This document shows positions 469-17,067 of a stretch of 64,000 nucleotides of DNA, one piece after another. The notes below the pieces were generated by a model. The model saw only the letters and a program-made list of their open reading frames with translations. It made no database searches and was not told the origin of the DNA. Positions within the stretch are counted from its first letter, which is position 1. Every line of letters starts with the position of its first letter. The position numbers were made by a program, and so were the translations under genes. Source of the stretch: Candidatus Sulfurimonas baltica (lineage in GTDB: Bacteria > Campylobacterota > Campylobacteria > Campylobacterales > Sulfurimonadaceae); assembly GCF_015265455.1 (NCBI RefSeq), contig NZ_CP054492.1, positions 682,001-746,000 of the forward strand, given 5' to 3'.

Positions 469-801
469 ATGTCAGCGATAATAGATAGATATATAATAAA
501 TAATGTTGAATATGACAGAAGAGTTAAATTGACAGTAGAAGACAAAAAAGAGATTAAAACAGTTTATAAAGAGGGTATATTCTCTCAAAGAGAATTAGCA
601 GAAATTTATAATGTAAGCAGAAGAAGTATTCAATTTGCGATTTCCACTGATAAATTAAAAGCAAATAAACAAAGACGTGCAGAAAGAGGCGGAAGTAAGC
701 AATATTATAATAAAGAACAAAATTCTCAAACTCAAAGAGAACATAGAAAATATAAGAAAGAACTCTTAGCTTGTGGTATTGAACTAACAAGAGTTGCTTA
801 A
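469..801 (+). CDS. Small helix-turn-helix DNA-binding protein
   Basis: 110-residue basic protein. Residues about 35-60 read as a helix-turn-helix: 'SQRELAEIYNVSRRSIQFAI' has the pattern of a sigma-70 region 4 or transposase-type HTH, in which a Ser-Gln-Arg-Glu helix is followed by a recognition helix. A lysine/arginine-rich tail follows (KANKQRRAERGG). A ribosome site (AAGGAAA) lies at about 457-463. It sits directly upstream of the FtsK-like gene, so a role as a regulator of the element or as an accessory DNA-binding factor is plausible. No family name can be given with confidence. Confidence 0.6.
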   Translation: MSAIIDRYIINNVEYDRRVKLTVEDKKEIKTVYKEGIFSQRELAEIYNVSRRSIQFAISTDKLKANKQRRAERGGSKQYYNKEQNSQTQREHRKYKKELLACGIELTRVA

Positions 802-821
802 ATCATATTAAAGGGTTTTTG

Positions 822-2942
822 ATGGCGAATAAAGAAGAAGAGTTTATAACAACGGACCGTTTATACGAGGCTGGATATTTCAATAAAAAAGGTTATTTAA
901 ACAAAAGTCTAATATCAAAAATTAGTTTTTTTTCAATTATAATCAGCTTTATTTTTTTTAATTATATTGGAATATCTGGATACTATCTATTCTTAAAAGA
1001 AATTACTTTTAATGAATTTATTAATTATAGTTTTCAAGAAGAATTTATTGCAAACTCTGCTGTATGGTGGTTTGAAAAAGCGAAAAATATTTTAGTGGAT
1101 AAAAACATAACATTTATATTTATTAATTTAATTTCTATAATGCTACCTATCATTTTTATATTTAAATGGATTAATAGTATTAGAAAAAAAGCAGAAGTTC
1201 AATCACGATTAGCCTCAAATAATTTAAACCAATATTTTTTATATAAGAATGATAAAAAAAACAACAGTTTTACTTTTAAATTAATAAAGGGAGAAACAGT
1301 AAATTTTGACGGCTTCAATAATATAAAAAATAAAGAAAATTTATGTCAATTTTTTGGATATTCAAGTATGGAAGCAAAAAGAGTAGAAGACAATAAAGTA
1401 ATAATCGTGTTTAGTAATAAATTCCCAGCAATTGATAATGAAGAGGTAAAGGAATTGAATAAAAATATAGAACAATACGCAATGGCAGGATATATGACAT
1501 TAGGTTATAGCAATATAAGCGATGAAGGTGCTATTGAAAAGAAAGTTGGAAATTTATTTATTAAATATTTACCATTAAGTGATTTAAACATTCATATAAA
1601 ATTGATTGGAGCGAGCGGGTTCGGAAAAAGTGTGAATTTTGCAACATTTTTACGAAACTTTATAAATTCATTTAATGAAATTGACACTTTATTTATACAC
1701 GATTTTAAAGGTATTGAAAGTTCAAGAATAGAAAAATTTATAGAACAATCAAGCCAAAAAGAAGAGCTTGAAAAAAGAATTATTTCTTCAACAACAATAG
1801 ATGAGTTAGAAGATATTTTAGTGAAATTGAAAGTAGTTTACGAATATAGAAGAGTAGTTATGAGTGAAAATAATTGGCTAAATTATAAAGGTGGAAAAAT
1901 TATTGTAATGATAGACGAATACAATATTGGTATGTCAGCATTAGAAAGCAAAAATAAATTTGAAAGGAAGAAAGGCGAACAAGTCGAAAGAATGATAAAA
2001 GACTTTTCAATGCTTTACAGAGCTATGAATATGTATTTAATCATAGTCGGACAATCAAATCAAGTCCAAGATAATTGGAGTTCAACATTAAATAAACAAA
2101 CTTCTATTGGTTTTTTATTAAAAACTTCAAGTTATGTAGCAAATAGTTTTTGTAGTGAAGCTTATGAAAAAGGAATTGATTGTTCAAATTTCAATAAAGG
2201 AGAAGTCTTGTATTACAATGCGAATAACTCTATATATTTTAAGTTTTTAGCGGCATATTTAAATGAAAACTTCTTGTTTGATATGGGGAGAATAAATATT
2301 ACTCAAAGAAAAGAGATTGATAATAATATGTTCAAGTTAGCAATACAATTAAAACAAAAATTAAAAAATGAAAACAAAGTATATTATGAAAAATTATTAA
2401 AAGCAGAAGAGATAAAAGAGGCAGATTATAAAAAACAAATAGACGACTTCAACGAAACTTTAACAAAAAATATTAATGAAATCAGTAATTATAAATTTTT
2501 AGTAAAAGAAAAAGATAATTTTAAATTTCTTAAAGAAGAAGAATTTGAAATTAATGAAGAAGAAGAGTATGAAACTGATAAACCAATCGAACAGCTCATT
2601 ACAGAAACAGTTGAAAAAGAAGAAATAGTTGTAAAAATAGATATTAATCCTGATTTGAGAAGCTTAATAAAATTACATAAACAAAAGAAAACTAATGAGA
2701 GCATTATAGAAGCACAAAAGATTGACAATAGTAAAATTGAAAGTGAATTTGAAGAATTTAGTTTAGAGAGTTTTGAAGAAAAAGAAAAACAAGAATTTGA
2801 AATACAAAAGCTTGAAGATATAAAAGAGAAAAAAGAAGATATGTTGTTTGAAGAATTGGAACAATTAATTAATAATAATAAAAATGAAGACGGAACTATT
2901 CATAAAATAGATGATATTACAAATCTATTAAATGACTTGTAG
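822..2942 (+). CDS. FtsK/HerA-superfamily membrane ATPase (TcpA/T4CP-like)
   Basis: A 706-residue protein. Two hydrophobic segments near residues 30-57 and 95-120 anchor the N-terminus in the membrane, as in type IV coupling proteins and TcpA/FtsK translocases. The motor domain has a Walker A GASGFGKS (263-270), a Walker-A-proximal 'HDFKG' resembling the FtsK/VirD4 'DPKG', a Walker B 'VMIDE' (about 362-366) and 'IIVGQSNQ', the sensor-like Gln motif. The C-terminal third is a long Glu/Lys coiled-coil-like tail, unlike FtsK gamma. ATG 822 is chosen because AAGGG lies 6 bp upstream; a TTG at 819 is also in frame. Within an integrated element it most likely pumps DNA during transfer; filamentous-phage Zot-type export is a less likely alternative. 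Confidence 0.75.
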   Translation: MANKEEEFITTDRLYEAGYFNKKGYLNKSLISKISFFSIIISFIFFNYIGISGYYLFLKEITFNEFINYSFQEEFIANSAVWWFEKAKNILVDKNITFIFINLISIMLPIIFIFKWINSIRKKAEVQSRLASNNLNQYFLYKNDKKNNSFTFKLIKGETVNFDGFNNIKNKENLCQFFGYSSMEAKRVEDNKVIIVFSNKFPAIDNEEVKELNKNIEQYAMAGYMTLGYSNISDEGAIEKKVGNLFIKYLPLSDLNIHIKLIGASGFGKSVNFATFLRNFINSFNEIDTLFIHDFKGIESSRIEKFIEQSSQKEELEKRIISSTTIDELEDILVKLKVVYEYRRVVMSENNWLNYKGGKIIVMIDEYNIGMSALESKNKFERKKGEQVERMIKDFSMLYRAMNMYLIIVGQSNQVQDNWSSTLNKQTSIGFLLKTSSYVANSFCSEAYEKGIDCSNFNKGEVLYYNANNSIYFKFLAAYLNENFLFDMGRINITQRKEIDNNMFKLAIQLKQKLKNENKVYYEKLLKAEEIKEADYKKQIDDFNETLTKNINEISNYKFLVKEKDNFKFLKEEEFEINEEEEYETDKPIEQLITETVEKEEIVVKIDINPDLRSLIKLHKQKKTNESIIEAQKIDNSKIESEFEEFSLESFEEKEKQEFEIQKLEDIKEKKEDMLFEELEQLINNNKNEDGTIHKIDDITNLLNDL

Positions 2943-3309: not shown

Positions 3310-4293
3310 ATGGATAAGTATCAACAGCTTGAAAAAACAATTTTAGATTTAATACAAAACGATGATTTAGTTCAAGATCATTATGAAAAATTAAAAAATT
3401 TAGGTTTAAATATTATTAAGAATAATTTGCACTTGAAGATTGATTATAAAACTTTAAATAGCGAGTTATTAATTGATATTAAATTAGATAAAACAGCTAA
3501 ATTTATGAATTATTATGATTTAGAAGAGATTGATTATGAGATTAAAGATTTTGAATTTACTATTGAAAATATTAAAATAAACAATGAGCACAGTGGCAGA
3601 AATAATATTATTAAAAAACTCCCAGAGAGTATGAAAGAAAATTTTCAAGATAGTGATCATAAAAGTAGTAATAAAGTTATTAAAACGATTGAAGAGCAAG
3701 TTAATAGTATTTTAATAGATTTGGAAAATGAATATAAAAATGTAGGAAATAAAATTAATGAATTACTGGAAAATAATTTTAGTGATTTAAAAGACAACAG
3801 TGAAGCAGATATTAAAGAGAAACTAAAAAACTTTATTAAGAGTTATAAGACACGAAGAACAAAAAAGTTTGTTAAATACACTATTAAAAATTCTATTATA
3901 AGCAAGCAAAGAGAATACACAGATAAATATGATAAATTGAAATATAATCTTGTCAATAGATTTTTAGCCAATGGCAAAAGTGTATCATTTAGTGAATGGA
4001 GAGACTTTTTTGTTGCAAAGACATTATATAAAGAAAAGGATTTAGCTGTTAAAAAATTATTAAAAGATATTAGCAATTATGTTGAGGGAATTATAGATGA
4101 AGAGTTTATACAATTGGCAACAGAAAATTATGAATTACAAAAAGAGATGAATAAGAGATTTAATGCAGAAATAGACGACATTGTAGAAGTTGATAAGCGA
4201 AGATTGTTAAATGAAAGCTGGAAGCAATGCAAAATATTATTTAATCGTGCTGGGTTATCTCAAACAGAATTTCAAAAATTTCAAAATAAATAA
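3310..4293 (+). CDS. Hypothetical element protein, 327 aa, Lys/Glu-rich
   Basis: Soluble, highly charged and mostly helical by composition, with no motif I recognise. Residues about 130-200 look coiled-coil-like; a basic patch (KSYKTRRTKKFVK) lies near residue 180, which would suit nucleic-acid binding. A clear AAGGAG ribosome site sits upstream of ATG 3310. The gene is between two small orphans and the helicase-Rep gene, so a replication accessory role is conceivable but not shown. Confidence 0.5.
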   Translation: MDKYQQLEKTILDLIQNDDLVQDHYEKLKNLGLNIIKNNLHLKIDYKTLNSELLIDIKLDKTAKFMNYYDLEEIDYEIKDFEFTIENIKINNEHSGRNNIIKKLPESMKENFQDSDHKSSNKVIKTIEEQVNSILIDLENEYKNVGNKINELLENNFSDLKDNSEADIKEKLKNFIKSYKTRRTKKFVKYTIKNSIISKQREYTDKYDKLKYNLVNRFLANGKSVSFSEWRDFFVAKTLYKEKDLAVKKLLKDISNYVEGIIDEEFIQLATENYELQKEMNKRFNAEIDDIVEVDKRRLLNESWKQCKILFNRAGLSQTEFQKFQNK

Positions 4294-4310
4294 ATAAAAA
4301 AGAGTGAAAA

Positions 4311-4682
4311 ATGATTGCCAGGATTTATACATTGAATGAGTATTATAAAATATTTGAAGATATTTTTAATAATACAAATAATTATAAAAATAATGAATTC
4401 AGAAAATTAATTATAAGAATGTTTGAGATATTCAGAACTTATACTTATTTGGATAATGAATTAATAATTATAATCAATTCTGAAAAAGAGAAGATAAAAA
4501 TTAGCAAAAATTTATTTGAGAGTTTTAAATTCATAAGAGAATTTTTAATTGCAAAAGAGATAGTTGATAGCGAGTTTAATAATTTAAAATATTTTACTAA
4601 AAAATACCAAAATAATTTTTATAATTATTATGATTTATATGTTGTTAATAATATATTGAATGAAAAAATAGAAAGTGAATGA
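4311..4682 (+). CDS. Hypothetical element protein, 123 aa
   Basis: Soluble, Asn/Tyr/Ile-rich protein with no recognisable domain. Its TGA stop (4680-4682) overlaps the GTG start candidate of the helicase-Rep gene and lies 4 bp before that gene's ATG alternative. It is therefore probably translated together with the initiator. Many replication initiators have a small coupled upstream gene that sets their level, but that is only an analogy. Confidence 0.45.
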   Translation: MIARIYTLNEYYKIFEDIFNNTNNYKNNEFRKLIIRMFEIFRTYTYLDNELIIIINSEKEKIKISKNLFESFKFIREFLIAKEIVDSEFNNLKYFTKKYQNNFYNYYDLYVVNNILNEKIESE

Positions 4683-7600
4683 ATTAATGATTTATAAAAC
4701 TACAATTGAAGATATTGAATTTAATAGAATTGCTCTATTGGAGATACAATTATTTAAAGAGGGTAAATCATTCCAAGAGATTAACAGAGTTATAAAAGCC
4801 CAAAAAGCAGTTGAAATTATTAGTGATAAAGAATATATTATTAGTGATAAATTCAATGAGAAACAACTTGAAGCCATTCAATACAATAAGAAAAATAATT
4901 TAATTGTAAGTGCTGGTCCAGGTTCAGGAAAAACTTCCGTATTCGTTGAGAGAATTAAATATATAACTAAGAAACTCAATGTAAAGAGTAGAAATATATT
5001 AGGTTTAACATTTACAGAAAAAGCAAGTAATGAATTTAAAGAAAGAAGTGATTTAGAATTAGAATATTTGGGAACTTTTCATAGTGTGTTTTTTAAGTTG
5101 CTTCAAGAATACGGCAATTATTTTAACTTTAAAATAATGAATGAAGAGAAGAATGAATATTATCTAAAAAATAATATGAATTTACCCGAATTTGAGAAAA
5201 AAGAATTTACTACAAAAATTGGAACTGCAATTAAGTTAGATAAATTCATTAACGAGCATTTAGAGCTTGTATTAGAGTGTAATACGATTAATGAATACTA
5301 CGAGCTGTTAAATGATAAATTGACTGTTAAGACGAATTATACAGACACTAATATAATTAAAATATTTTTTGAGAAGAAAATAAAAAATAAGAAAATGAGT
5401 TTCAGCGATATTATCATATATACCTATCTTATGATTAAAAGCGATGCAGGGATACAAGAAAGATTAATTGAGCATTTTAATTATGTTCTTGTCGATGAAT
5501 ATCAAGATACTAATAATATTGTTTTAGAGATACTAAATTTAATAAGTCATAATAATTTATTTTTAGTTGGAGATATATATCAATCAATATACAGTTTCCA
5601 AGGTTCAAGTTTTGAAAAGTCGTTAACACTATTAGAAGATTTTGACGTGATCCAGTTGGATATAAATTACAGAAGCAGTAAAAATATAGTTGATTTTTCC
5701 AATAAATTTATTGATACAAATATGAAAGAGAAGTCGAATAAAATCAATGCAGTTAAAGAGAGCGGTTTAGTGGCGAATAAAAATATTAGTGTAATTGAGA
5801 ATATTAGTGATTTTACAATTCCAGAACTAATTTATAGGAGTGGCAGAGAACTTAATGAAATATGTGTTTTGGCAAGAAATAATAATCACATAAAAGAGAT
5901 TAAAGAGCAGTTCAATAAATGGAAAGTTCCATACAAATATAAGAATGAAAGAGAATTTGAATATTTTTTAGATGCAATCTTATTAATGTTTGCTGCTGGA
6001 TACGAATTAAACGATATATATTTTAATAGATTTAGACTTACTGGCGACTATACAGCTCATAATATATTGGATATTTTAAGAGTAATTGAAATGATTATGA
6101 ATAAAATGAATATAGTTGCTTATTTCTCAAATAGAGGACTTGAAGAAGATATGCAAGAGAAGTTTAAAAAGTGGAGCGATAAACAATTACAAGTTTTTAG
6201 TTCTGACAATAACTTAAATATTTATCTTGAAACACTTGAAAATAAGCTTGATTATTTTTTAGATAATGAATTATATATTGAAAAAAATGGTGTTAATATT
6301 ATGACAATACATAAGTCAAAAGGTTTAGAATGGAATACTGTTATTTTATATAATCAAGAAGATGGCATATTCCCAATCAATAGAGAAGTTGAAGAGGAAA
6401 AAAGACTTTATTATGTGGCAATAACACGAGCAAAAGAAAATCTTATAATCACAAGTAAGCATAAAATTAATAGTTTTACAAGTGCTTTAATCAATGCTGG
6501 TTATATAGATAAAATATTTATTACTAAGCAAAAAAAATATGAACTTGATTTTGCGAGTTCTCACAGTGATATAATAAAATTTACGAACCGTAATGATTTA
6601 AAAATAGATTTTATACATTTAGATTTTGCAGAGTATGAGAAAAATTATAAATCAACCAGAAGAGCTGATATTATTGAAGATACTATTAGAAGCTATAACG
6701 AACACAAGCAGAGAAATATTGTTGATAATATTAATGCTATCACGATTGAAGATTTAGAAATAATGCTTTTGGATTTAGACAGCTTCAAACAAGAACACGG
6801 GATTGATAATCTTGACCTTAAATATGCAGTCGAAAATATTGATACTGCAAGAAGTCTATTTTTTGAGAAAGGAAAAATAAACAGTGATTATATTAACAAT
6901 GACTTCACGGATATAGTTCATAAAATTATCAATTATCGCAATTGGGTGAGCGAAGAAAATATCAATGATATTTGGTTTGAAGAGAAACAAATTAAAATGT
7001 TTAAATCTATCGTAAAATTTGTAGTATCTAAAAAATATACTGATTTAACCAAGGATAGAGCTAAAAAATATATTCAAAAGAGAAGTGAGAATATTTATAA
7101 TAAAGCTAAAAATTCCAAGTTAAACAGCTATCAAGATTTTGTGAATGATATGCTTAATCAATATTATACTAAGTCAAACGAGCAAAAGAGCTTTTTTACC
7201 CATAATGTCTTAGGAATGCATAATATCAATACCAATCTTCCAATGATTGATTTAACCAATAATAGATACGATAAATTAAAAGGCTCTGTTCTTGAAGATT
7301 TTAGTATAGATGCCAATGGATATTCATACAATAGAGAGATTTTAAAAGGGAGCTTTTTAAATCAAAACAAAACTATACAAGCACAGAAAAGATGGGCGAA
7401 ATTAAAATATTTAGAATTTGCATATAGTGATAAAAGAGCTTTTTTCCTAACATTCACAAATAAAAGCATTTGGCATAAATGGAAAACTAAATATAAATCA
7501 TTGAAAGAAGATCGCAAATACGGAGACAGTTCTATTTTAAAAGATAATGAGAACTTTGTAATGCAAGGCAATAATCTTCAAGAACATTTTATTAACTCAG

Positions 7601-9039
7601 CAAAAGAGATCAATAAAATTTGGACTTATTTTTATCAAATACTAAAAGCTGATATACAAAACTATAAGAAAAAAAATAAGCTTGAAGAGGAATTTGAAGT
7701 TGGTTTTTTTAGACAATTAGAAGCACATAAGAACCTTACAAGCCACGGACATATACTATTATTTGTCGATGAAGCAGTTAAAGGTGTTGTTAAAAATTCT
7801 ATGTATAAAACTATTCAAGAATTTGGACTAAATGGTAAATTTCAAGATTTACAAGAGATTAAAAATCAAAGTGATGTTGAACCACTAAGTGAAGAAGAAA
7901 CCACTAAATTAATTGAAGAACTAATGATTTTAAACGGTAAATTAGAAACTCAAACTAATAAAAAAAATCTTAAAGGTATCAAGACAAAAATTAAAAATAT
8001 TAACAAAAGATTGAATAATAATTTTTCAATGCCATCAAGTTATATTGGGAAATATATGCTAAAAAATGCGTTTAAAAATGAGGAAGACGACCTATTGAAT
8101 AGTAAAACATTAGAGTTCTTCAATGCCTGGGAAAGTATGATTGGTAACAAAGTGAAAATTACTGGTATGAGTAATTATAAGCACACTACACAAAAACATA
8201 TTGATATTATGTATGGTTGGTTTCAAGAAAATGCACCAGAGGCGATTAGAGCAGTCAAGAGAACTGGAAAGCCTTTATACTATTGGTTGGAAAAACAAGA
8301 AATTAACGGTAATTTTACTTTTGGTTATGAAAGACAAATTAAAGAGAATTTTAAAAATTCTGATTTTATTAAAGACGTTGAATTAATTTTCAGTATGCTT
8401 AAAACTAACGAACTCACAATTAAAGAATTACAAAGTAGATTAGAGGAGAGTAATTTTAATATTAAAGATATTGAAAACGATATTTTACAAATGAAATTTC
8501 GAGAAATTATAAAAGACAGAACTGAAAATGAAAATTTTTTGTGGGAGTTGGCGACAAACTTTGTTTTAGGCAATCAAGAGAAGAGCAAATATATTAATAT
8601 TCATACAAATAAAAAACTAATTAATGCAATAGTAGCTGATAAATTAATTTGTAAATATGAAAAAACAGCTTATGTAAAAGGGATAGAAGCTTATAGAGAA
8701 AAAATGAATAATCCACATATATCTTTTGCTCCAAGAGAATGGAGTTTTAAATGGACCTCATTTAATGGAAAATGGAATTTAAAAAGTGAAGTTTATTTTA
8801 ATACACCAAATAGAAAGAGTTTAATATATGTAGAAGATATGTATATTAAAGGTTGGATTACGGCAAATGAGATTGTATCTAACAGCGAATTTGATACATA
8901 CAGCTTTTTAAAAAATAGAATGGATAAGATAAAACACTATGATAATTATGCTCCAAATGTTGATGAGGCTATGAATAATTCTTTTAAAGAAGAGATTGAT
9001 ATATTTGAATTAATGCGTGAAAATAGGTTAATAGCCTAA
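4675..9039 (+). CDS. Fusion of UvrD-type helicase with a two-tyrosine HUH replication initiator
   Basis: The N-terminal part (to about residue 620) is a full SF1A helicase: Q-motif near 61-70, Walker A GPGSGKT (81-87), Walker B DEYQD (274-278), 'GDIYQSIYSFQG', 'NYRS', 'TIHKSKGLEW' (about 545) and 'YYVAITRAKE' (about 580-590). After an unassigned middle comes a rolling-circle initiator of the phiX174/P2 GpA kind: motif I FLTFT (about 924-928), motif II HGHILLF with metal ligands H1024 and H1026, and motif III YIGKY with candidate catalytic Y1123 and Y1127. It should nick the origin and unwind with the same polypeptide. Start is GTG 4675, overlapping the previous gene, or ATG 4687; ribosome site weak. 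No stop or frameshift interrupts it, so the fusion appears genuine. Confidence 0.85.
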   Translation: MNELMIYKTTIEDIEFNRIALLEIQLFKEGKSFQEINRVIKAQKAVEIISDKEYIISDKFNEKQLEAIQYNKKNNLIVSAGPGSGKTSVFVERIKYITKKLNVKSRNILGLTFTEKASNEFKERSDLELEYLGTFHSVFFKLLQEYGNYFNFKIMNEEKNEYYLKNNMNLPEFEKKEFTTKIGTAIKLDKFINEHLELVLECNTINEYYELLNDKLTVKTNYTDTNIIKIFFEKKIKNKKMSFSDIIIYTYLMIKSDAGIQERLIEHFNYVLVDEYQDTNNIVLEILNLISHNNLFLVGDIYQSIYSFQGSSFEKSLTLLEDFDVIQLDINYRSSKNIVDFSNKFIDTNMKEKSNKINAVKESGLVANKNISVIENISDFTIPELIYRSGRELNEICVLARNNNHIKEIKEQFNKWKVPYKYKNEREFEYFLDAILLMFAAGYELNDIYFNRFRLTGDYTAHNILDILRVIEMIMNKMNIVAYFSNRGLEEDMQEKFKKWSDKQLQVFSSDNNLNIYLETLENKLDYFLDNELYIEKNGVNIMTIHKSKGLEWNTVILYNQEDGIFPINREVEEEKRLYYVAITRAKENLIITSKHKINSFTSALINAGYIDKIFITKQKKYELDFASSHSDIIKFTNRNDLKIDFIHLDFAEYEKNYKSTRRADIIEDTIRSYNEHKQRNIVDNINAITIEDLEIMLLDLDSFKQEHGIDNLDLKYAVENIDTARSLFFEKGKINSDYINNDFTDIVHKIINYRNWVSEENINDIWFEEKQIKMFKSIVKFVVSKKYTDLTKDRAKKYIQKRSENIYNKAKNSKLNSYQDFVNDMLNQYYTKSNEQKSFFTHNVLGMHNINTNLPMIDLTNNRYDKLKGSVLEDFSIDANGYSYNREILKGSFLNQNKTIQAQKRWAKLKYLEFAYSDKRAFFLTFTNKSIWHKWKTKYKSLKEDRKYGDSSILKDNENFVMQGNNLQEHFINSAKEINKIWTYFYQILKADIQNYKKKNKLEEEFEVGFFRQLEAHKNLTSHGHILLFVDEAVKGVVKNSMYKTIQEFGLNGKFQDLQEIKNQSDVEPLSEEETTKLIEELMILNGKLETQTNKKNLKGIKTKIKNINKRLNNNFSMPSSYIGKYMLKNAFKNEEDDLLNSKTLEFFNAWESMIGNKVKITGMSNYKHTTQKHIDIMYGWFQENAPEAIRAVKRTGKPLYYWLEKQEINGNFTFGYERQIKENFKNSDFIKDVELIFSMLKTNELTIKELQSRLEESNFNIKDIENDILQMKFREIIKDRTENENFLWELATNFVLGNQEKSKYINIHTNKKLINAIVADKLICKYEKTAYVKGIEAYREKMNNPHISFAPREWSFKWTSFNGKWNLKSEVYFNTPNRKSLIYVEDMYIKGWITANEIVSNSEFDTYSFLKNRMDKIKHYDNYAPNVDEAMNNSFKEEIDIFELMRENRLIA

Positions 9040-9354
9040 AAATTTCCAAACTCAATTGCGGATAGATCTATCTACACTATAAAAATTCTTATAAATTAAT
9101 TGTTATTGCCAAGTATGTCCTAATAATCTAAAATATTGCAGTGAATTTTATAGATATTTCTGCATATTTTTCGTGTTTATTTTAATATTTATTGATACAT
9201 TGTTATTGGTTTGTGAAAATATAAGGGTTGGTTAATAAGGTATTCAAGGGGCTTCGCCCTCTTTGTGCCAATACCACAACTGACGGGGAATTGGTTTATT
9301 GCTTCGCAAAAACCAACCCCACCAGATTACGGATTGTCAAACACAACCCATTCA
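9040..9354. other. Non-coding gap after the Rep gene; candidate replication origin region
   Basis: About 315 bp with no convincing gene. It contains a perfect 12-bp palindrome GATAGATCTATC (9061-9072), a repeated TTGTTATTG (near 9098 and 9199), an A+T-rich middle, and a sharply G+C-richer block of hairpins at 9225-9320. Placement beside the initiator gene and the abrupt change in composition fit an origin; a terminator between converging genes (4675 plus, 9355 minus) is the other likely role. Confidence 0.4.
9225..9320. other. Nested hairpins, candidate rolling-circle origin
   Basis: Outer arms GGGTTGGTT (9225-9233) and AACCAACCC (9311-9319) are a perfect 9-bp inverted repeat. Inside, GGTATT (9239-9244) pairs with AATACC (9270-9275) around a small GGGGC-TTC-GCCCT hairpin (about 9248-9260). 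A second hairpin runs 9285-9320: GGGG, TTGGTTT and TTGC pair with GCAA, AAACCAA and CCCC around a TTC loop, with small bulges. The right arm can pair with either partner, so two exclusive folds exist. Such structures are typical of HUH-Rep origins, where the nick site lies in or beside a hairpin. Confidence 0.4.
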
Positions 9355-9741
9355 TTATTGATTGGTTTGCTCTTTTAATTCAAGTTCTTTATTAATTTTA
9401 CTCAAATATTCAAATAAATCTTTATCATTAGTATCAAGATATATATTCAAAATTCCGTTTAGTATCCGCTCATTATCAGCATATTTTTTATGCAAGTATC
9501 TTTGTCTTTTTGCATTTTTACTTATTGAAAAATCTATTGTTTTAACAATTTCTTTTTTAACTTCAATAATCGGTTTAGGTTCTTCTTGTTTTAATTTTTC
9601 AGCTTCACTTTTTTCTGTAATCAAAGTTTTATATTTATTAAATAATGAGAAGAATTTTTCTTCTAATGCGTCTCGATCAAAATTTTTAATTTGAAGTTTT
9701 AATTTTTCGTCTTCTGTTAGTTCTTTATTTGTTCCAAACAT
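9355..9741 (-). CDS. Hypothetical coiled-coil-like protein, 128 aa
   Basis: Charged, soluble, helical protein; residues about 8-55 and 100-128 are Lys/Glu/Leu-rich with heptad-like spacing. It faces the helicase-Rep gene across the structured gap and is divergent from the small gene at 9838. An AGGAAAAAA ribosome site precedes ATG 9741. No domain was recognised. Its mirror-strand frame is shorter and lacks a ribosome site. Confidence 0.5.
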   Translation of the reverse strand: MFGTNKELTEDEKLKLQIKNFDRDALEEKFFSLFNKYKTLITEKSEAEKLKQEEPKPIIEVKKEIVKTIDFSISKNAKRQRYLHKKYADNERILNGILNIYLDTNDKDLFEYLSKINKELELKEQTNQ

Positions 9742-10091: not shown

Positions 10092-11435
10092 CTAATATGG
10101 TATAACAGAATTTGCATTCCCAAAATTATTAAATATATTACTGTTTAATGTATTTGTATCATTAGCAAGATTTTTATTTGAGAGATTAAGATAATCTTGC
10201 GTTTGTTTAACACTACTATGATTTAATAAAACCATAATATTGTATATTGATGCTCCTTGTTCAGCTAATGAAGTTGCTATTGACCTACGGATTGAATGAA
10301 AGTTGATAACTAAATCCCTATCTTGATTATTCTGCTTGTTTAAGTTTTTATTAAATAATTTATCCATTATAGTATAGACAGTTTTAGGAACTACCGTTAG
10401 TGGTTGTGGAGGGGTTCTCCTTCTCCTTGGATCAATAGGTCGAATTAAATATTCATCATTTTCATAATTTACTAAAACCTTGGTTTCTAACCAATTTACA
10501 GCCTCGTCATTTAATGCTATTCTATATCTTTTTGAATTTGTTTTGAAATTATTTAGAGTAATTTCTTTTTTATCTATGTCAATATCTTTTTTTCTAATGT
10601 TTAATATAGTGTTAGAACGACCAGCAGTTAATACAGCGAGATATACTGATAGATAAACATTGGGATTTTTTGTGTGTGCTTTACAAGTTTCTAATAATAA
10701 TTTAATTTCTTCTATTGAGAGTGAATTTTCTCTGACTTTTTTTGGATTTTTAAAAATAGTATTTTGAAATGGGTTTTTAATATCTATGATTTGATTTCTT
10801 ATAGCATAGTTGATTATACTTTTTATTTTAGTTATAAGGTCATAAGTAGATTTTTCAGCTAAGTTCTTAGTAGGTAAATAGCTCTTAGTATATTTTAATA
10901 TATCTGATTTTAATATCTTATTCACAGGAATTGAAGCTAACTCACTGTCTCTTATATTTTTGTTATATTTTAATACTTCTTTATGTAAATTATACAACTT
11001 AGTTTGAACTACTCTATTTTCTTGAAATTCTTTTTCTTTTTTTAAATAATTGTATTTTTGTTTCAACATTATAGTCATATCTGTTTTTTTACTTTCAAAG
11101 AATAAGGCGGCTAATTCATTTAATGTTAAGTAATTTGTAGTTAAATCGTTTTCAATTGTATTTGAAGAATTATCTATAATAATTTCTTTTTCTTCTTTTT
11201 CTATTGGTATATTTACACCGTGTAAGCTTGATTTAAACTTATCCATTAAAACAAGAGCCTCTGTAATGTGCTTATTTATATGCTTATCTTTTGTCATTAA
11301 AACTTTTCGTTTAGCTTTACTGTTATTATCACGATAAGTAGCTGAATAAGAAAACTTTCCAGTATTTAATTTTTTAATAGATATTCCTTGTCCAACCGAA
11401 GTTATAGCCCCAATTTGCAATGTGTTAAAATCCAT
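10092..11435 (-). CDS. int: Tyrosine-family site-specific integrase
   Basis: 447 residues. The catalytic set is visible: R273 in 'TAGRSNT', H380-x-x-R383 in 'FHSIRRS', H406 in 'LLNHSS', and nucleophile Y415 in 'QTQDYLNL'; K299 is the likely beta-hairpin lysine. The N-terminal part holds an arm-binding-like region (about 1-60) and a SAM-like core-binding region (about 100-230). The gene points away from the tRNA fragment, with its start about 125 bp from it, as is usual for elements that enter tRNA genes. It should catalyse insertion and excision of the element between the tRNA 3' end and its copy. Confidence 0.92.
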   Translation of the reverse strand: MDFNTLQIGAITSVGQGISIKKLNTGKFSYSATYRDNNSKAKRKVLMTKDKHINKHITEALVLMDKFKSSLHGVNIPIEKEEKEIIIDNSSNTIENDLTTNYLTLNELAALFFESKKTDMTIMLKQKYNYLKKEKEFQENRVVQTKLYNLHKEVLKYNKNIRDSELASIPVNKILKSDILKYTKSYLPTKNLAEKSTYDLITKIKSIINYAIRNQIIDIKNPFQNTIFKNPKKVRENSLSIEEIKLLLETCKAHTKNPNVYLSVYLAVLTAGRSNTILNIRKKDIDIDKKEITLNNFKTNSKRYRIALNDEAVNWLETKVLVNYENDEYLIRPIDPRRRRTPPQPLTVVPKTVYTIMDKLFNKNLNKQNNQDRDLVINFHSIRRSIATSLAEQGASIYNIMVLLNHSSVKQTQDYLNLSNKNLANDTNTLNSNIFNNFGNANSVIPY

Positions 11436-11561
11436 TTACAATCCTTTAAATTAATTAGATTGATTATAGCATAAAAGACGACAAAAAGACGACAAAAAAA
11501 TGAAAAAAAAGCTATAATTGAGGAATTTATATTATTAAAGCACTTATTATATAGATATGTA

Positions 11562-11589
11562 GAGAGTTCGAACCTCTCCTCGTCCACCA
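11562..11589 (+). other. tRNA 3' fragment, probable right attachment site
   Basis: GAGAG-TTCGAAC-CTCTC forms a perfect T-arm, followed by the acceptor half CTCGTCC, discriminator A and encoded CCA. The matching 5' acceptor strand (GGACGAG), D-arm and anticodon arm are absent upstream, where the sequence is A+T-rich. This is the footprint left at one end by an element that integrated into the 3' end of a tRNA gene. The isotype cannot be told from this piece. Confidence 0.8.
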
Positions 11590-11644
11590 CTGAAGAAACT
11601 TTATTTTTTACTACACTCCCCTTAAAACAATTTTTATTCCGCAC

Positions 11645-11660: not shown

Positions 11661-11721
11661 TATACAATTTTTTAAAATTATCATACTATATACACAATAA
11701 ACTATATTTATGGAGTGTTAC

Positions 11722-14700
11722 ATGTCTAATATAATAGGAAAAATCATAAGCCTTGATGGTACTTTTTATGCAAAAGGAACAGATGGTTCTCTTCAAGAAG
11801 TTTCAAAAGGTTATGAAATTTTAGAAGGTCAAACTGTTTTTGGTGATAAAAGTAATGCTTCTATTAATAGTGCTATAGTTTCAATGACTGATGGCAGCGA
11901 TATGGTTATATTAGGTCATGACAAACAGTTGTTTGATGCATCTCTTACTCAGCAGGAGTTTGCAGTAGAAGAAACTGTCACAAGTAAAGACTCAATTGCG
12001 GCTATGCTAGAAGAAAATGGTGATGTTGACGATGCAGATGATATAGAAACTGCAGCTGGTGAAGGCGCTTCAGCTGAGTCTACAGAAGGTGGAGAAGCAG
12101 ACTTTGCAGATGTTAATAATGCAAGCACTGATGTAAATGCAGATCTTCGTGAGCGTGCTTTTGGAGATGATGAAGTAAAATTAGAAGAAGGTCTTGGTGA
12201 AGAAGTTCGCCGCTCAGCGTCTACAACAACTCCACCGCCTGAGACAGATGCAGAAGCAGTTACAATCTCAATCGTAGCGACAGATGCAGATGGTAATATA
12301 TTAGCTGACTCAACAGTTGCAGAGGGTGATACAGCTTACTATAAACTAGTTGCAAAAGACCCAGCTGGTAATATTATCGATGGAGCAACAGGTACAGCAG
12401 ATGTAGCATTTACAGATGGAACTGCTACTAATGCAGATTACTCAGCTGCAAATATCACAGCTAAAGCATTAAATACAGTATTTAGTGCAAACGCATTAGA
12501 TGATTACTTAGCAGATAACGGTGAGAATTTCAATGTAACAATCTCAAATCCTGTAGCAGCTGCATATGAGACAGTAGCACTAGGTACTTCTTCAGTAGTT
12601 ACAACAATTACAGATAATTCAACTACAACAACTCCACCGCCTGAGACAGATGCAGAAGCAGTTACAATCTCAATCGTAGCGACAGATGCAGATGGTAATA
12701 TATTAGCTGACTCAACAGTTGCAGAGGGTGATACAGCTTACTATAAACTAGTTGCAAAAGACCCAGCTGGTAATATTATCGATGGAGCAACAGGTACAGC
12801 AGATGTAGCATTTACAGATGGAACTGCTACTAATGCAGATTACTCAGCTGCAAATATCACAGCTAAAGCATTAAATACAGTATTTAGTGCAAACGCATTA
12901 GATGATTACTTAGCAGATAACGGTGAGAATTTCAATGTAACAATCTCAAATCCTGTAGCAGCTGCATATGAGACAGTAGCACTAGGTACTTCTTCAGTAG
13001 TTACAACAATTACAGATAATTCAACTACAACAACTCCACCGCCTGAGACAGATGCAGAAGCAGTTACAATCTCAATCGTAGCGACAGATGCAGATGGTAA
13101 TATATTAGCTGACTCAACAGTTGCAGAGGGTGATACAGCTTACTATAAACTAGTTGCAAAAGACCCAGCTGGTAATATTATCGATGGAGCAACAGGTACA
13201 GCAGATGTAGCATTTACAGATGGAACTGCTACTAATGCAGATTACTCAGCTGCAAATATCACAGCTAAAGCATTAAATACAGTATTTAGTGCAAACGCAT
13301 TAGATGATTACTTAGCAGATAATGGTGAAAACTTTAATGTAACTATCTCAAACCCAGTAGCTTCTGCATATGAGACAGTAGCACTAGGTACTTCTTCAGT
13401 AGTTACAACAATTACAGATAATGATGTACTTCCTGAAGCTAAAAATGATACATTCACAGCAACTGAAAATGGAACAGAGTCTGTTTCATCTGAAGATAGT
13501 GTTGATACAATTAAGGCTAAAGATGATGGACAACAAGCATCTGGAAATATTTTAGCAAATGACACAACAAATAACGATTTAGCTAAAGTAACTAGTGTTA
13601 CGGTTGATGGTACCCTCCATACTTTACCAACAGATGGAACAGATACTTCTGTTATAGGTGATTATGGTACTTTAACTATTAACAATACAGGTGCATTTAC
13701 TTTTGCTGTTAATGAAACAAATTCAACTGTGGATGCACTTAATGGTAATGTTAATGTAGTGCAAACTTTAGATATAGATATTGGATACACAATCAGCGAT
13801 GGTGTTAATGATCCCAGTTCTGCTACTTTAACTGTAAATATAGAGGGAAGAGATGACGCACCAGTTATAAACTCTATTATTGCAAACAATCAGCCTTTAC
13901 ATGTAGTATCTGGATTGTTAGATGTTGATGGTAATGATATTGTAGATACTTTAAGTGCAGCTGATTTAACTGTTCAGGATAAAGGTATTATTTTCAATGC
14001 AGAAAATGGCAATCTAAACATAGATATGGGGACAGGTGGTTCTAGTATGTCTGTTGAATATAATGGCGGTCAAGCTGGTTACAATAATGCTATAGGATAT
14101 TATACTACGGGTGAAAACTCTCAAGCTGGAATTATATATGCGGAACAAGGCAATACGAAAGGAACACAATCTATTAGTGCTGGTACATTAAATGGATTAG
14201 AAGGTAATGTTGTTTTCTTTGTTATTCCTAACGGAAAAACTAATGGCGTAACAACTGATAGTACAATCACTGTTAATGATGATGGTTTTATATCTGTAGA
14301 TGGTAAACCAACTACAGCATACTATAGTGATAATAGTTTAAATGCAGGTGGATATGACCATGTAGTAGCTGGAATGGCCCCTGATGGGAAAGGGTTAGTT
14401 TTAGGATTTGAAGATCTTCCTTCTCTGGGCGATAGAGATTATGATGATGTTGTTATTACTATCAATACTTGTAATACTTTAGGAACAGGTGAAGCTTACT
14501 TTGTTGATTTAGGTAACATTTCTGATTCTAATCAACAGTACGCTTGGACTGTAGATGGCGACAACAGTAATAAAGCAACTTGGAACAACGTAGACAGTAA
14601 TGGAAATGGTATAAATATTTATGCGCTAAATTTTGACGGATCTACAGGTTCGGTACTTAATGATGGAAATTATCAACTTGGTGTTGAAGGGAGTAGAAGT

Positions 14701-17067
14701 ACTGGAAATCAAGTTCCTAATCAATTACACTATGATGAAGTTACTGATCAGTCACAAGCTATTGTTATAGAACTTGAAGGTAACTTAAATCATGCAGAAT
14801 TCCAATTTACAAGACTTATAGATAGTGAAAATGAACAAGGTCATTATACTACTTACAAAAATGGAGTGCTTGTTAGTGAAGGTGATTTAAATGGAAGTGG
14901 ATTGGGCAATAATCCTACATTTACAATTGATACTGGTGATAATGTTTTTGATAAAATTGTGTTTACGGCTGTTCAGTATGATACTGGGGCTAATAGCAAT
15001 TCAGATACATCAGATTATTACTTACAATCATTTAAAGGGAGTGGACCAGCGTCAGCAAATGGTGCAAATACAATTCTCAAAGACATAAACCTTAGTGATG
15101 TAGATGATGCGAACTTAGAAAGTGCAACTGTAACTCTTACCAACTTTAAAGCTGGCGATGTAATAAGCGCAGATGATTTACCAAATGGTATTACTGCTAC
15201 TGTTGCTGATGGAGTTGTAGAATTAACAGGAGCTGCGAGAGTAGCTGATTATGAAGCAGCACTTGAGTCATTAACATTTGAAAGCAACAGTACAGACAGA
15301 GAGGTTAGAAATTTTGAATTTACTGTAAATGATGGCGATAAAACTAGCAATACAATGGTTGTTAAAGTAGATATTGGTGGATGTAGTTTAAATATAGGAG
15401 ATTACAACAGCACACCAACATCTACAGATGATAGTATTTCAACTCCTGAAGATACGTATTTAATCATTGCGTTAAGTGACTTTGGAACATATCAAGATGC
15501 AAATTTGGACACTTTTAGCGATGTGAAAATTACAACATTGCCAACAAATGGAACATTAACACTTAATGGAGTTGATGTTACTTCTGGGCAAGAGATTTCT
15601 GTTAGTGATATTGAAGCAAGTAAATTGATATTTACTCCTTCTCATAATACAGATGCAGACGGTTCGTTTGACTTTAAAGTAAGTGATGGAACTAATTGGA
15701 GTGATACTCATACTACTACTATAGAAGTTATCGCCGTGTCGGATGCTCCAACTCTTTCAGTTGTAGTTGGTGAAGCAGTTCTAGAATCAGCTAGTAGCTT
15801 TACTGCTCATGCATATGAAGGAAATGGATTTAATAGTTGGGAGAGCAATGGTAATACTACAAGTTCTCAAGCACAAGTTTCTTATGAAGATGACCTTGGA
15901 TATGGAGTGAGTAACAAAAATACTAATCATGGTTCTCAAGATACAGCTTTAGAGAATAATGAATCACTGTTATTAGATTTTGGAAAATCTGAAGGTATCA
16001 CTGTTACACTGAATTCAGCAAATAATGGAACACAATTCTTTGGAAACTGGATTGCATATGATGAAAATAGATTAAAAGTAGCAAATGGTGAGTTTAATAC
16101 AACTGACGCTAGTTTAGATTTAGTTATTAATCCAGATGCAACATTTAGATATGTTGCTTTTGATGCGGGTAATGTAACTGGAACAGATAATAAGGATAGT
16201 AATTCTGGCTTTTATGTTGAACCTGTTGAAATAACTACAAGTACAGCAATTACAAATGACACTACATATACATACTCAGTGGCTATCAACGCAGCGCTTA
16301 CAGATACCGATGGAAGTGAGAGTTTAGGTTTTATTACAGTAGATAGATTGCCAGATGGTGCAACTTTAACTTCTGGAACTGGTATCGCTGATAATAACGA
16401 TGGAACTTATACTATAGATTTGGCTACTGTTACTAAAGATGCAGATGGTGTAGTACAATTATCAATGACATCGGGCAGCCCATTAGACCCATCAGCTATA
16501 AACGATATCACTGCAAGTGTAACATCAACAGAACGTGATGGTGAAGATAGCTCAACAACTGAAGCAACAGCTCATTTAGAAGTAAATGGTACTGATGGCT
16601 CAGATTATGATGATTATATTCATTCTGGGACAGGTGCTGACACTATAAACGCAGGTGCTGGAGAAGACATTGTAGTATTTGATGCACAAGATACTGTAGA
16701 TGGTGCAGACGGATATGATACCATTCTCATAACAGGTGAAGAAAATATAAATTTTAGTGGACTAAATGATAATATTCATAATATAGAAGCTATTGAGCTA
16801 GGCGATGGTAAACAAAATATTTCTATTTCTCTTGATGATGTGCTAATTATGACAGATACTGATAATATACTTCGTATAGATGGGGATGCACAAGATCATG
16901 TATCTTTAGATACGACAACTAGTGATGGATCAGGTGAATGGACTTTAGGAGAACATATTGTTGATTCTGAAACACACCAAGCATATAATCAATATACTGG
17001 AACAGGAGATGACGGTAGCTCTGTAGTTTTAGAGATAAGTACAAGTATTCAGGTAGATGAGAGCTAA
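11722..17067 (+). CDS. LapA-type giant adhesin, type I secreted, with retention module
   Basis: About 1,781 residues, no Sec signal. Residues 1-110 resemble the LapA retention module (starts 'IIGKIISLDGTFYAKG'), followed by TAAG at 110-113, the motif cut by the periplasmic protease LapG. Three Calx-beta-like domains of 134 residues (about 170-569) are near-identical. Then come a VCBS-type domain (about 570-715), a DUF4114-like domain (about 830-920, 'GFEDLPSLGDRDYDDVV'), cadherin-like modules, and a C-terminal RTX-like segment ('GTGADTINAGAGED', near 1635) with a type I secretion tail. It should be held in an outer-membrane TolC pore and mediate attachment. ATG 11722 is preferred over 11710 because GGAG lies at 11712-11715. 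The exporter genes face it downstream. Confidence 0.88.
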   Translation: MSNIIGKIISLDGTFYAKGTDGSLQEVSKGYEILEGQTVFGDKSNASINSAIVSMTDGSDMVILGHDKQLFDASLTQQEFAVEETVTSKDSIAAMLEENGDVDDADDIETAAGEGASAESTEGGEADFADVNNASTDVNADLRERAFGDDEVKLEEGLGEEVRRSASTTTPPPETDAEAVTISIVATDADGNILADSTVAEGDTAYYKLVAKDPAGNIIDGATGTADVAFTDGTATNADYSAANITAKALNTVFSANALDDYLADNGENFNVTISNPVAAAYETVALGTSSVVTTITDNSTTTTPPPETDAEAVTISIVATDADGNILADSTVAEGDTAYYKLVAKDPAGNIIDGATGTADVAFTDGTATNADYSAANITAKALNTVFSANALDDYLADNGENFNVTISNPVAAAYETVALGTSSVVTTITDNSTTTTPPPETDAEAVTISIVATDADGNILADSTVAEGDTAYYKLVAKDPAGNIIDGATGTADVAFTDGTATNADYSAANITAKALNTVFSANALDDYLADNGENFNVTISNPVASAYETVALGTSSVVTTITDNDVLPEAKNDTFTATENGTESVSSEDSVDTIKAKDDGQQASGNILANDTTNNDLAKVTSVTVDGTLHTLPTDGTDTSVIGDYGTLTINNTGAFTFAVNETNSTVDALNGNVNVVQTLDIDIGYTISDGVNDPSSATLTVNIEGRDDAPVINSIIANNQPLHVVSGLLDVDGNDIVDTLSAADLTVQDKGIIFNAENGNLNIDMGTGGSSMSVEYNGGQAGYNNAIGYYTTGENSQAGIIYAEQGNTKGTQSISAGTLNGLEGNVVFFVIPNGKTNGVTTDSTITVNDDGFISVDGKPTTAYYSDNSLNAGGYDHVVAGMAPDGKGLVLGFEDLPSLGDRDYDDVVITINTCNTLGTGEAYFVDLGNISDSNQQYAWTVDGDNSNKATWNNVDSNGNGINIYALNFDGSTGSVLNDGNYQLGVEGSRSTGNQVPNQLHYDEVTDQSQAIVIELEGNLNHAEFQFTRLIDSENEQGHYTTYKNGVLVSEGDLNGSGLGNNPTFTIDTGDNVFDKIVFTAVQYDTGANSNSDTSDYYLQSFKGSGPASANGANTILKDINLSDVDDANLESATVTLTNFKAGDVISADDLPNGITATVADGVVELTGAARVADYEAALESLTFESNSTDREVRNFEFTVNDGDKTSNTMVVKVDIGGCSLNIGDYNSTPTSTDDSISTPEDTYLIIALSDFGTYQDANLDTFSDVKITTLPTNGTLTLNGVDVTSGQEISVSDIEASKLIFTPSHNTDADGSFDFKVSDGTNWSDTHTTTIEVIAVSDAPTLSVVVGEAVLESASSFTAHAYEGNGFNSWESNGNTTSSQAQVSYEDDLGYGVSNKNTNHGSQDTALENNESLLLDFGKSEGITVTLNSANNGTQFFGNWIAYDENRLKVANGEFNTTDASLDLVINPDATFRYVAFDAGNVTGTDNKDSNSGFYVEPVEITTSTAITNDTTYTYSVAINAALTDTDGSESLGFITVDRLPDGATLTSGTGIADNNDGTYTIDLATVTKDADGVVQLSMTSGSPLDPSAINDITASVTSTERDGEDSSTTEATAHLEVNGTDGSDYDDYIHSGTGADTINAGAGEDIVVFDAQDTVDGADGYDTILITGEENINFSGLNDNIHNIEAIELGDGKQNISISLDDVLIMTDTDNILRIDGDAQDHVSLDTTTSDGSGEWTLGEHIVDSETHQAYNQYTGTGDDGSSVVLEISTSIQVDES
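12231..13428 (+). repeat. Three tandem 402-bp repeats inside the adhesin gene
   Basis: Units begin at 12231, 12633 and 13035, each starting TCCACCGCCTGAG. Copies one and two appear identical; copy three diverges only from about 13323 by mostly silent changes. The unit encodes one 134-residue Calx-beta-like domain plus a TTTPPPET linker. The near identity points to recent duplication or ongoing gene conversion, and makes the copy number prone to change and to assembly error. Confidence 0.95.

Follow-up and report, generated by a model that had tools for sequence, protein, structure and literature searches.

An integrated element of Candidatus Sulfurimonas baltica encodes a UvrD-type helicase joined to a GpA-type HUH initiator, a probable replication enzyme

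An element integrated at tRNA-Ser(GCT)

We analyzed a stretch of 64,000 nucleotides from contig NZ_CP054492.1 of Candidatus Sulfurimonas baltica (positions 682,001 to 746,000, hereafter the window). The left end of the window lies within a 24.9-kb element that is integrated at a tRNA-Ser(GCT) gene and bounded by a 30-bp repeat. The genome has exactly two copies of this repeat (C1:668716-668745 and C1:693562-693591, with 24.8 kb between them). The right copy, attR, is in the window, and attL is found at tRNA-Ser(GCT), 24.8 kb to the left of attR and outside the window. A single gene of this element encodes a helicase followed by a nicking domain (hereafter the fusion gene), and a homologous element was found in another genome of the same genus, G012. 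The following features were annotated (coordinates of the window):

469..801, + strand: small HTH protein, excisionase- or regulator-like (weak phrog excisionase match, E 3e-4)
819..2942, + strand: FtsK/HerA-like membrane ATPase of 707 aa with two N-terminal hydrophobic stretches (G012 homolog; profile matches to related ATPases)
3310..4293, + strand: ORF of 327 aa upstream of the fusion gene, role unassigned (no confident Pfam or PHROG family)
4311..4682, + strand: ORF of 123 aa that overlaps the fusion gene at its 5' end (no Pfam or PHROG family)
4675..9039, + strand: helicase-Rep fusion gene, 1454 aa (single open frame; full-length homolog in G012)
4855..6468, + strand: SF1A UvrD/PcrA-type helicase domain, residues ~61-598 (Pfam and PHROG matches)
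7315..8319, + strand: GpA-type HUH endonuclease domain, residues ~881-1215, catalytic H1024, H1026, Y1123 and Y1127 (invariant columns; profile-profile comparison; PF05840/PF23343 matches of relatives; fold matches)
9220..9248, + strand: noncoding block TATAAGGGTTGGTTAATAAGGTATTCAAG, candidate nick site or double-strand origin (18 bp identical in G012)
9285..9320, + strand: hairpin GGGGAATTGGTTTATTGCTTCGCAAAAACCAACCCC, candidate origin stem-loop (kept in G012)
9355..9741, - strand: ORF of 128 aa adjoining the candidate origin (41% identity over 110 aa to a 108-aa G012 protein)
10092..11435, - strand: tyrosine integrase of 447 aa adjoining the right end (Pfam Phage_integrase, E 3.4e-20; phrog_1, E 3e-36)
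11475..11494, + strand: pair of AAGACGACA repeats, probable arm sites of the integrase (matching pair near attL)
11562..11591, + strand: attR core, copy of the tRNA-Ser(GCT) 3' end (30-bp repeat, twice in the genome)

The repeat AAGACGACA has four copies in total in a 25.2-kb stretch, two at each end of the element, a distribution that suggests probable integrase arm sites. The combination of an integrase with att sites at a tRNA gene is that of AICE-like elements and IMEs, and the fusion gene is part of a tRNA-integrated element, not of a plain plasmid. Inovirus-like prophages of the sibling genomes G012, G431 and G150 (L029:11709-11799, L031:12053-12142 and L032:7186-7275) adjoin the same tRNA-Ser(GCT) next to pyrF. 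Since sibling prophages use it too, this site is a shared integration hotspot, at which the integrases have only distant kinship to that of the window element. Directly to the right of attR, a gene for a 1785-aa adhesin-like protein (11710-17067) contains three 402-bp tandem repeats that are 98% identical (12221-13422).

Six genes are common to the window element and that of G012: those of a 246-aa protein, ArdA (Pfam, E 4e-15), a 161-aa protein, the membrane ATPase, the fusion protein, and the 128-aa protein. The ATPase of the window shares 27% identity with its G012 homolog; the G012 copy matches FtsK_SpoIIIE (E 6e-5), a Pfam family that the window ATPase itself does not match. Two OB folds are predicted in the 246-aa protein (pLDDT 71), whose model resembles the single-stranded DNA-binding proteins (SSB) of Deinococcus and Thermus (Foldseek 8e-6; Z 8.0). 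Because these predicted tandem OB folds match SSB structures, an SSB-like role is likely for this protein, judging from its fold.

The left half of the element carries cargo, namely a type I restriction-modification system with a CBASS-like cyclase and a 2TM effector inside it, and a D12-class adenine methyltransferase. The HsdR, HsdS, and HsdM operon lies to the left of the window (L007:6974-15719; C1:668974-677719), and between HsdS and HsdM are inserted the CBASS-like cyclase, the 2TM effector, and PDC-S11/PDC-S05 proteins. The antirestriction protein ArdA is encoded by the same element as a type I restriction-modification operon.

A helicase and an HUH initiator in one frame

The frame 4675-9039 (+) comprises 1454 codons without interruption or internal stop, as a sequence-only reading of this DNA had stated. 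Both the GTG at 4675 and the ATG four codons downstream are possible start codons, and the N-terminal ~55 residues diverge in the G012 homolog. The 327-aa and 123-aa ORFs directly 5' of the gene (3310-4682) are absent from the genes common with G012. Since both domains are found elsewhere as separate proteins, the frame might be taken for an assembly or sequencing join of two genes, or for a decayed relic. The independent, single-contig genome G012 encodes the same fusion in one frame, with the same junction, a conserved linker, 48% identity from the helicase through the linker to the C-terminus, no internal stop, and all catalytic residues retained. Because an independent genome has the same fusion, it is not a sequencing join. 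This excludes the frameshift between two genes that the sequence-only reading had allowed for, and we give next to no credence to a join or a relic.

The N-terminal half is a helicase of the SF1A UvrD/PcrA class, displaying both the full UvrD motif set and the family profile matches. The motifs GPGSGKT (81-87), DEYQD (274-278), NYRSS (331-335), HKSKGLEW (546-553), and YVAITRAKE (580-588) can be read in the sequence, and the Pfam domains UvrD-helicase (PF00580, residues 61-323, E 6e-46) and UvrD_C (PF13361, residues 513-594, E 1.5e-32) were both matched, so that the complete set of SF1A motifs claimed earlier is confirmed by motif reading and by the profile search proposed for this part of the protein. 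In addition, residues 28-623 matched phrog_1967, a DNA helicase (E 1.4e-85), and the helicase half matched the PcrA structure 1pjr (E 3e-41).

The PADLOC models of GajB and of the DRT helicase match residues 57-610, and type I restriction-modification and CBASS-like genes are present in the same element, which would fit an anti-phage defence protein with a GajB-like helicase in a defence island. The PADLOC matches, however, lie in the core common to UvrD-type helicases and are less strong than that of phrog_1967, and the HUH half groups with replication initiators. Moreover, G012 keeps the gene together with the SSB-like protein, the ATPase, and the origin, while the defence cargo was not seen there. 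We consider a role in defence highly improbable.

In the C-terminal half, the three rolling-circle motifs follow one another in order at the very positions noted in the sequence-only reading: FLTFT (924-928), TSHGHILLF (1022-1030), and SYIGKY (1122-1127). An alignment with 16 relatives (17 sequences) displayed F924, T926, T928, H1024, H1026, Y1123, K1126, Y1127, and K1130 as invariant. A profile of the fusion clade matched an independent profile of standalone inovirus/GpA initiators with an E-value of 1.2e-18 (Prob 99). The invariance of these columns in 17 sequences and the profile-profile match indicate that the HUH motifs are not due to chance.

Direct scans of the HUH half alone gave no significant Pfam, PHROG, or NCBIfam match, and the window protein itself remained below the Pfam gathering scores of PF05840 and PF23343. 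The GpA/Rep profile check suggested by the earlier reading was thus negative by direct search and positive by profile-profile comparison, and the lack of a direct family match means that this domain is missed by single-sequence searches. Its relatives are matched more readily: within the 17-sequence alignment, REP_ORF2-G2P was matched by 16 members and Phage_GPA by 13 (best E 1e-24), and phrog_91 (nicking at origin of replication) by 14. Motif I, HxH, Y-x3-Y, and family homology all place the domain in the GpA type (PF05840/phrog_91); for the fused protein this homology rests on profile comparison, as no Pfam HUH family was scored by the protein itself. The likeness to the phiX174 and P2 GpA proteins proposed earlier from the YxxxY spacing holds as regards the GpA type, but not as regards phiX174 or P2 specifically, since inovirus initiators are the closest named relatives.

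For the HUH half, AlphaFold gave a model of modest quality (mean pLDDT 54.7, with values of 80-90 confined to the core). With that limit, it resembles 2x3g, the SIRV1 ORF119 (VIA-align Z 7.7, 115 aligned residues, rmsd 3.4), and the same low-pLDDT model aligns with AAV Rep and with the parvovirus protein MVM NS1 at Z ~6. Its best match among BFVD viral replication proteins had an E-value of 1e-5, whereas Foldseek found nothing in the PDB at E <= 0.001. An HUH fold around residues 924-1127, as foreseen in the sequence-only reading, is therefore favored by these resemblances and not by the Foldseek search. The PDB match 3lec (Z 8.0) was set aside as a 44-residue helix match.

This modest model also aligns partly with Helitron, and some relatives have weak Helitron_like_N matches, as might be expected of an IS91/Helitron-like transposase, in which an HUH domain is likewise combined with a helicase. 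Integration of the element is nevertheless accounted for by the tyrosine integrase and the exact tRNA att repeats, and both the helicase class and the domain order differ from those of such transposases, an identity that we regard as very unlikely.

A candidate origin downstream of the fusion gene

In the interval that separates the fusion-gene stop codon from the 128-aa ORF, both elements contain TATAAGGGTTGGTTAATA, with 18 bp identical; the best of 200 shuffles reached 12. In this two-sequence comparison, which defines the candidate origin, TATAAGGGTTGGTTAATA runs on to TATTCAAG and is followed, ~40-100 bp onward, by a GC-capped hairpin. In G012, a predicted hairpin includes the conserved block in its loop and arm. 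The block is the sole noncoding blastn match between the window element and the G012 element, is unique within the window, and occurs in no other locus compared. Its conservation together with the hairpins points to a likely nick site.

Distribution and origin of the fusion

Only two fused genes, those of the source genome and G012, were found in searches of four overlapping sets: 149 relatives and genomes from the phylum (397), the genus (135), and the order (399). The same searches yielded standalone relatives of the HUH half. PF05840 was matched in 92 of the 397 phylum genomes, and none of the 107 listed places displayed a helicase fusion, the longest frame being 599 aa. Scans of viral contigs and of genome contigs with the Rep query gave no relative. 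Full-length-alignment scans returned RecB and standalone UvrD proteins alone, without the HUH motif. Matches in phage records were to the helicase only, and plasmid records contained nothing for the C-terminal half. We found no description of an SF1A-HUH fusion in the literature searched, in which coverage of subscription journals was thin. The placement of an SF1A helicase before an HUH domain is real, rare, and, as far as could be found, undescribed.

In the five genomes examined, the standalone HUH relatives reside in integrated prophages with P-loop (Zot-like), secretin-like, and integrase genes, and Zot was confirmed by profile in G012. These neighboring genes indicate that the prophages are inovirus-like. 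In the tree of the Rep core, the two fusions group together (100/98), followed by the standalone Rep of G241 (99/96) and then by that of G080; the deeper branching order is uncertain because the branches are long. The 528-aa G241 protein (L028:1234-2820, G241:C17), nearest to the fusions, is followed by ORFs for a relative of the 246-aa OB protein and for small membrane proteins. No helicase remnant was detected near it by tblastn in 14 kb, on a contig that starts ~1.2 kb past the gene.

The G080 genome contains an element of ~9 kb between tRNA-Met and tRNA-Asn (L057:1644-10975, G080:C36), with an integrase, an FtsK-like ATPase, a candidate OB-like protein (hhalign probability 22%), and a standalone 532-aa Rep. 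The same tRNA pair also adjoins the fusion element of G012. The G080 element is probably a non-fused cousin, and G137 likewise combines a GpA Rep with an FtsK-like ATPase and an integrase. The existence of these related elements without a fused helicase, few as the sequences are, suggests that a pre-existing Int-ATPase-Rep element gained the helicase.

Proposed mode of replication

GpA-type enzymes remain attached to the 5' end after nicking DNA and employ two tyrosines alternately, and the PcrA, UvrD, and Rep helicases move 3'-5' along the intact strand. We consider it probable that the fusion protein, in which a UvrD/PcrA-class helicase is attached to the N-terminus of a GpA-type HUH initiator, is the replication enzyme of the integrative element. 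From its domains and their setting we infer the following order of nicking and unwinding. The integrase, with an excisionase, would first circularize the element. The HUH domain would then nick one strand at the conserved block 3' of its own gene and remain on the 5' end via one of its tyrosines, Y1123 or Y1127. Ahead of host DNA polymerase III, the duplex would be opened by the attached SF1A motor, whose expected direction is 3'-5' along the circular strand left uncut, and the displaced strand would be coated by the tandem-OB protein of the element. After one turn, the second tyrosine would cut and rejoin the strand, and the FtsK-like ATPase could then move the DNA, perhaps into another cell. 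Because the initiator would carry its own 3'-5' motor, the element is predicted, in keeping with the self-sufficiency suggested in the sequence-only reading, to have no need to borrow host UvrD or Rep, although host polymerase and further host factors must still be required.

The helicases of conjugative relaxases belong to SF1B and move 5'-3', and in MOBF relaxases such as TraI and TrwC the relaxase is N-terminal and the helicase follows. These also join an HUH nuclease and an SF1 helicase on one chain; in contrast, the fusion protein has its helicase first, and of the SF1A class, which bears out the difference in order and class drawn in the sequence-only reading. The expected SF1A polarity would suit replication of a circular template more than the TraI mode.

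The protein might instead act mainly as a relaxase for conjugative mobilization, with the nick site as oriT and the FtsK-like ATPase as the coupling protein to a helper system, a function that would be compatible with replication. Tn916 carries ArdA, and the co-conservation of the FtsK-like membrane ATPase and ArdA resembles the helP-conQ-nicK module of ICEBs1/Tn916. In that module, an OB helper, a coupling protein, and a relaxase that also initiates replication are adjacent (PMC3542172), much as an OB protein, an FtsK-type ATPase, and an HUH-type enzyme occur together here. ICEBs1, however, requires host PcrA plus the OB-type helper as processivity factor (PMC3542172), and the ICEBs1/Tn916 elements have no fused helicase and carry a T4SS. 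No VirB4-type gene (PF03135) was found above cut-off in the source genome or in G012, nor among the ORFs of the element, which sets it apart from T4SS-type ICEs, and an SF1A motor with 3'-5' polarity is suited to travel along the uncut strand as replication proceeds, unlike the motors of relaxases. We therefore regard a primary role as relaxase as unlikely, if clearly less so than the transposase and defence readings, and retain replication as the preferred function.

AICEs, which encode Int, Xis, Rep, and an FtsK-like translocase, resemble the window element in having an integrase, a rolling-circle-type Rep, and an FtsK-like ATPase without a T4SS (PMC3218068). The window element differs in its distinct, helicase-fused Rep, its SSB-like protein, and its non-actinobacterial host, and its transfer is putative. 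The FtsK-like ATPase may provide an AICE-like or helper-dependent transfer route.

Comparison with known initiators and implications

The fusion protein shares FxTFT, HxH, and Y-x3-Y with the GpA/inovirus initiators (PF05840, PF23343, phrog_91), besides the profile match (E 1e-18) and the standalone relatives in Zot-bearing prophages of the same genus. It differs from them in the complete UvrD-type helicase N-terminal to its HUH domain, and the source genome, unlike inoviruses, gave no match to Zot (PF05707). The filamentous phages CTXphi, VGJphi, and Pf depend on host UvrD to replicate by rolling circle (PMC4439123, PMC4863604); the helicase fused here is thus the one recruited by inovirus relatives. 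The helicase class and the expected unwinding from the nick are alike to those of the host UvrD, PcrA, or Rep used by CTXphi, Pf, and ICEBs1, whereas the helicase of the fusion is encoded by the element and covalently attached to the nicking enzyme.

Nicking and unwinding are also combined on one chain in the Reps of CRESS-DNA viruses and pCRESS plasmids. Their helicase, however, is of SF3 and C-terminal, while that of the fusion is N-terminal and of the SF1A UvrD class. According to a broad survey, no bacterial or archaeal single-stranded DNA virus isolated up to its date had a helicase-fused Rep, and the helicase-bearing bacterial Reps described there are HUH-SF3 (PMC6668415). A rolling-circle Rep with a helicase is a known kind, and it is this domain order and helicase class that we did not find described in our sequence and literature comparisons.

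We tentatively put forward a broader reading, which is plausible and still somewhat doubtful: that the fusion exemplifies a new class of rolling-circle replicase encoded by mobile elements. An SF1A motor permanently joined to a GpA-type nickase, together with an element-encoded tandem-OB SSB, would provide the initiator, helicase, and single-stranded DNA-binding parts of a phiX174-like reaction, needing neither host UvrD nor Rep, and would have arisen from non-fused Int-ATPase-OB-Rep elements within a Campylobacterota-like lineage.

Bacterial rolling-circle replicons, like filamentous phages, are described as recruiters of host SF1 helicases, a pattern from which the fusion departs. That the naturally and covalently fused helicase is of the class recruited by inoviruses, UvrD, supports the partnership between Rep and helicase, and the fusion offers a single-chain enzyme in which the coupling of nicking and unwinding can be studied. 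The fusion constitutes a second route to helicase-bearing Reps, beside HUH-SF3, and its predicted independence from the host helicase suggests a way in which such an element may broaden its host range.
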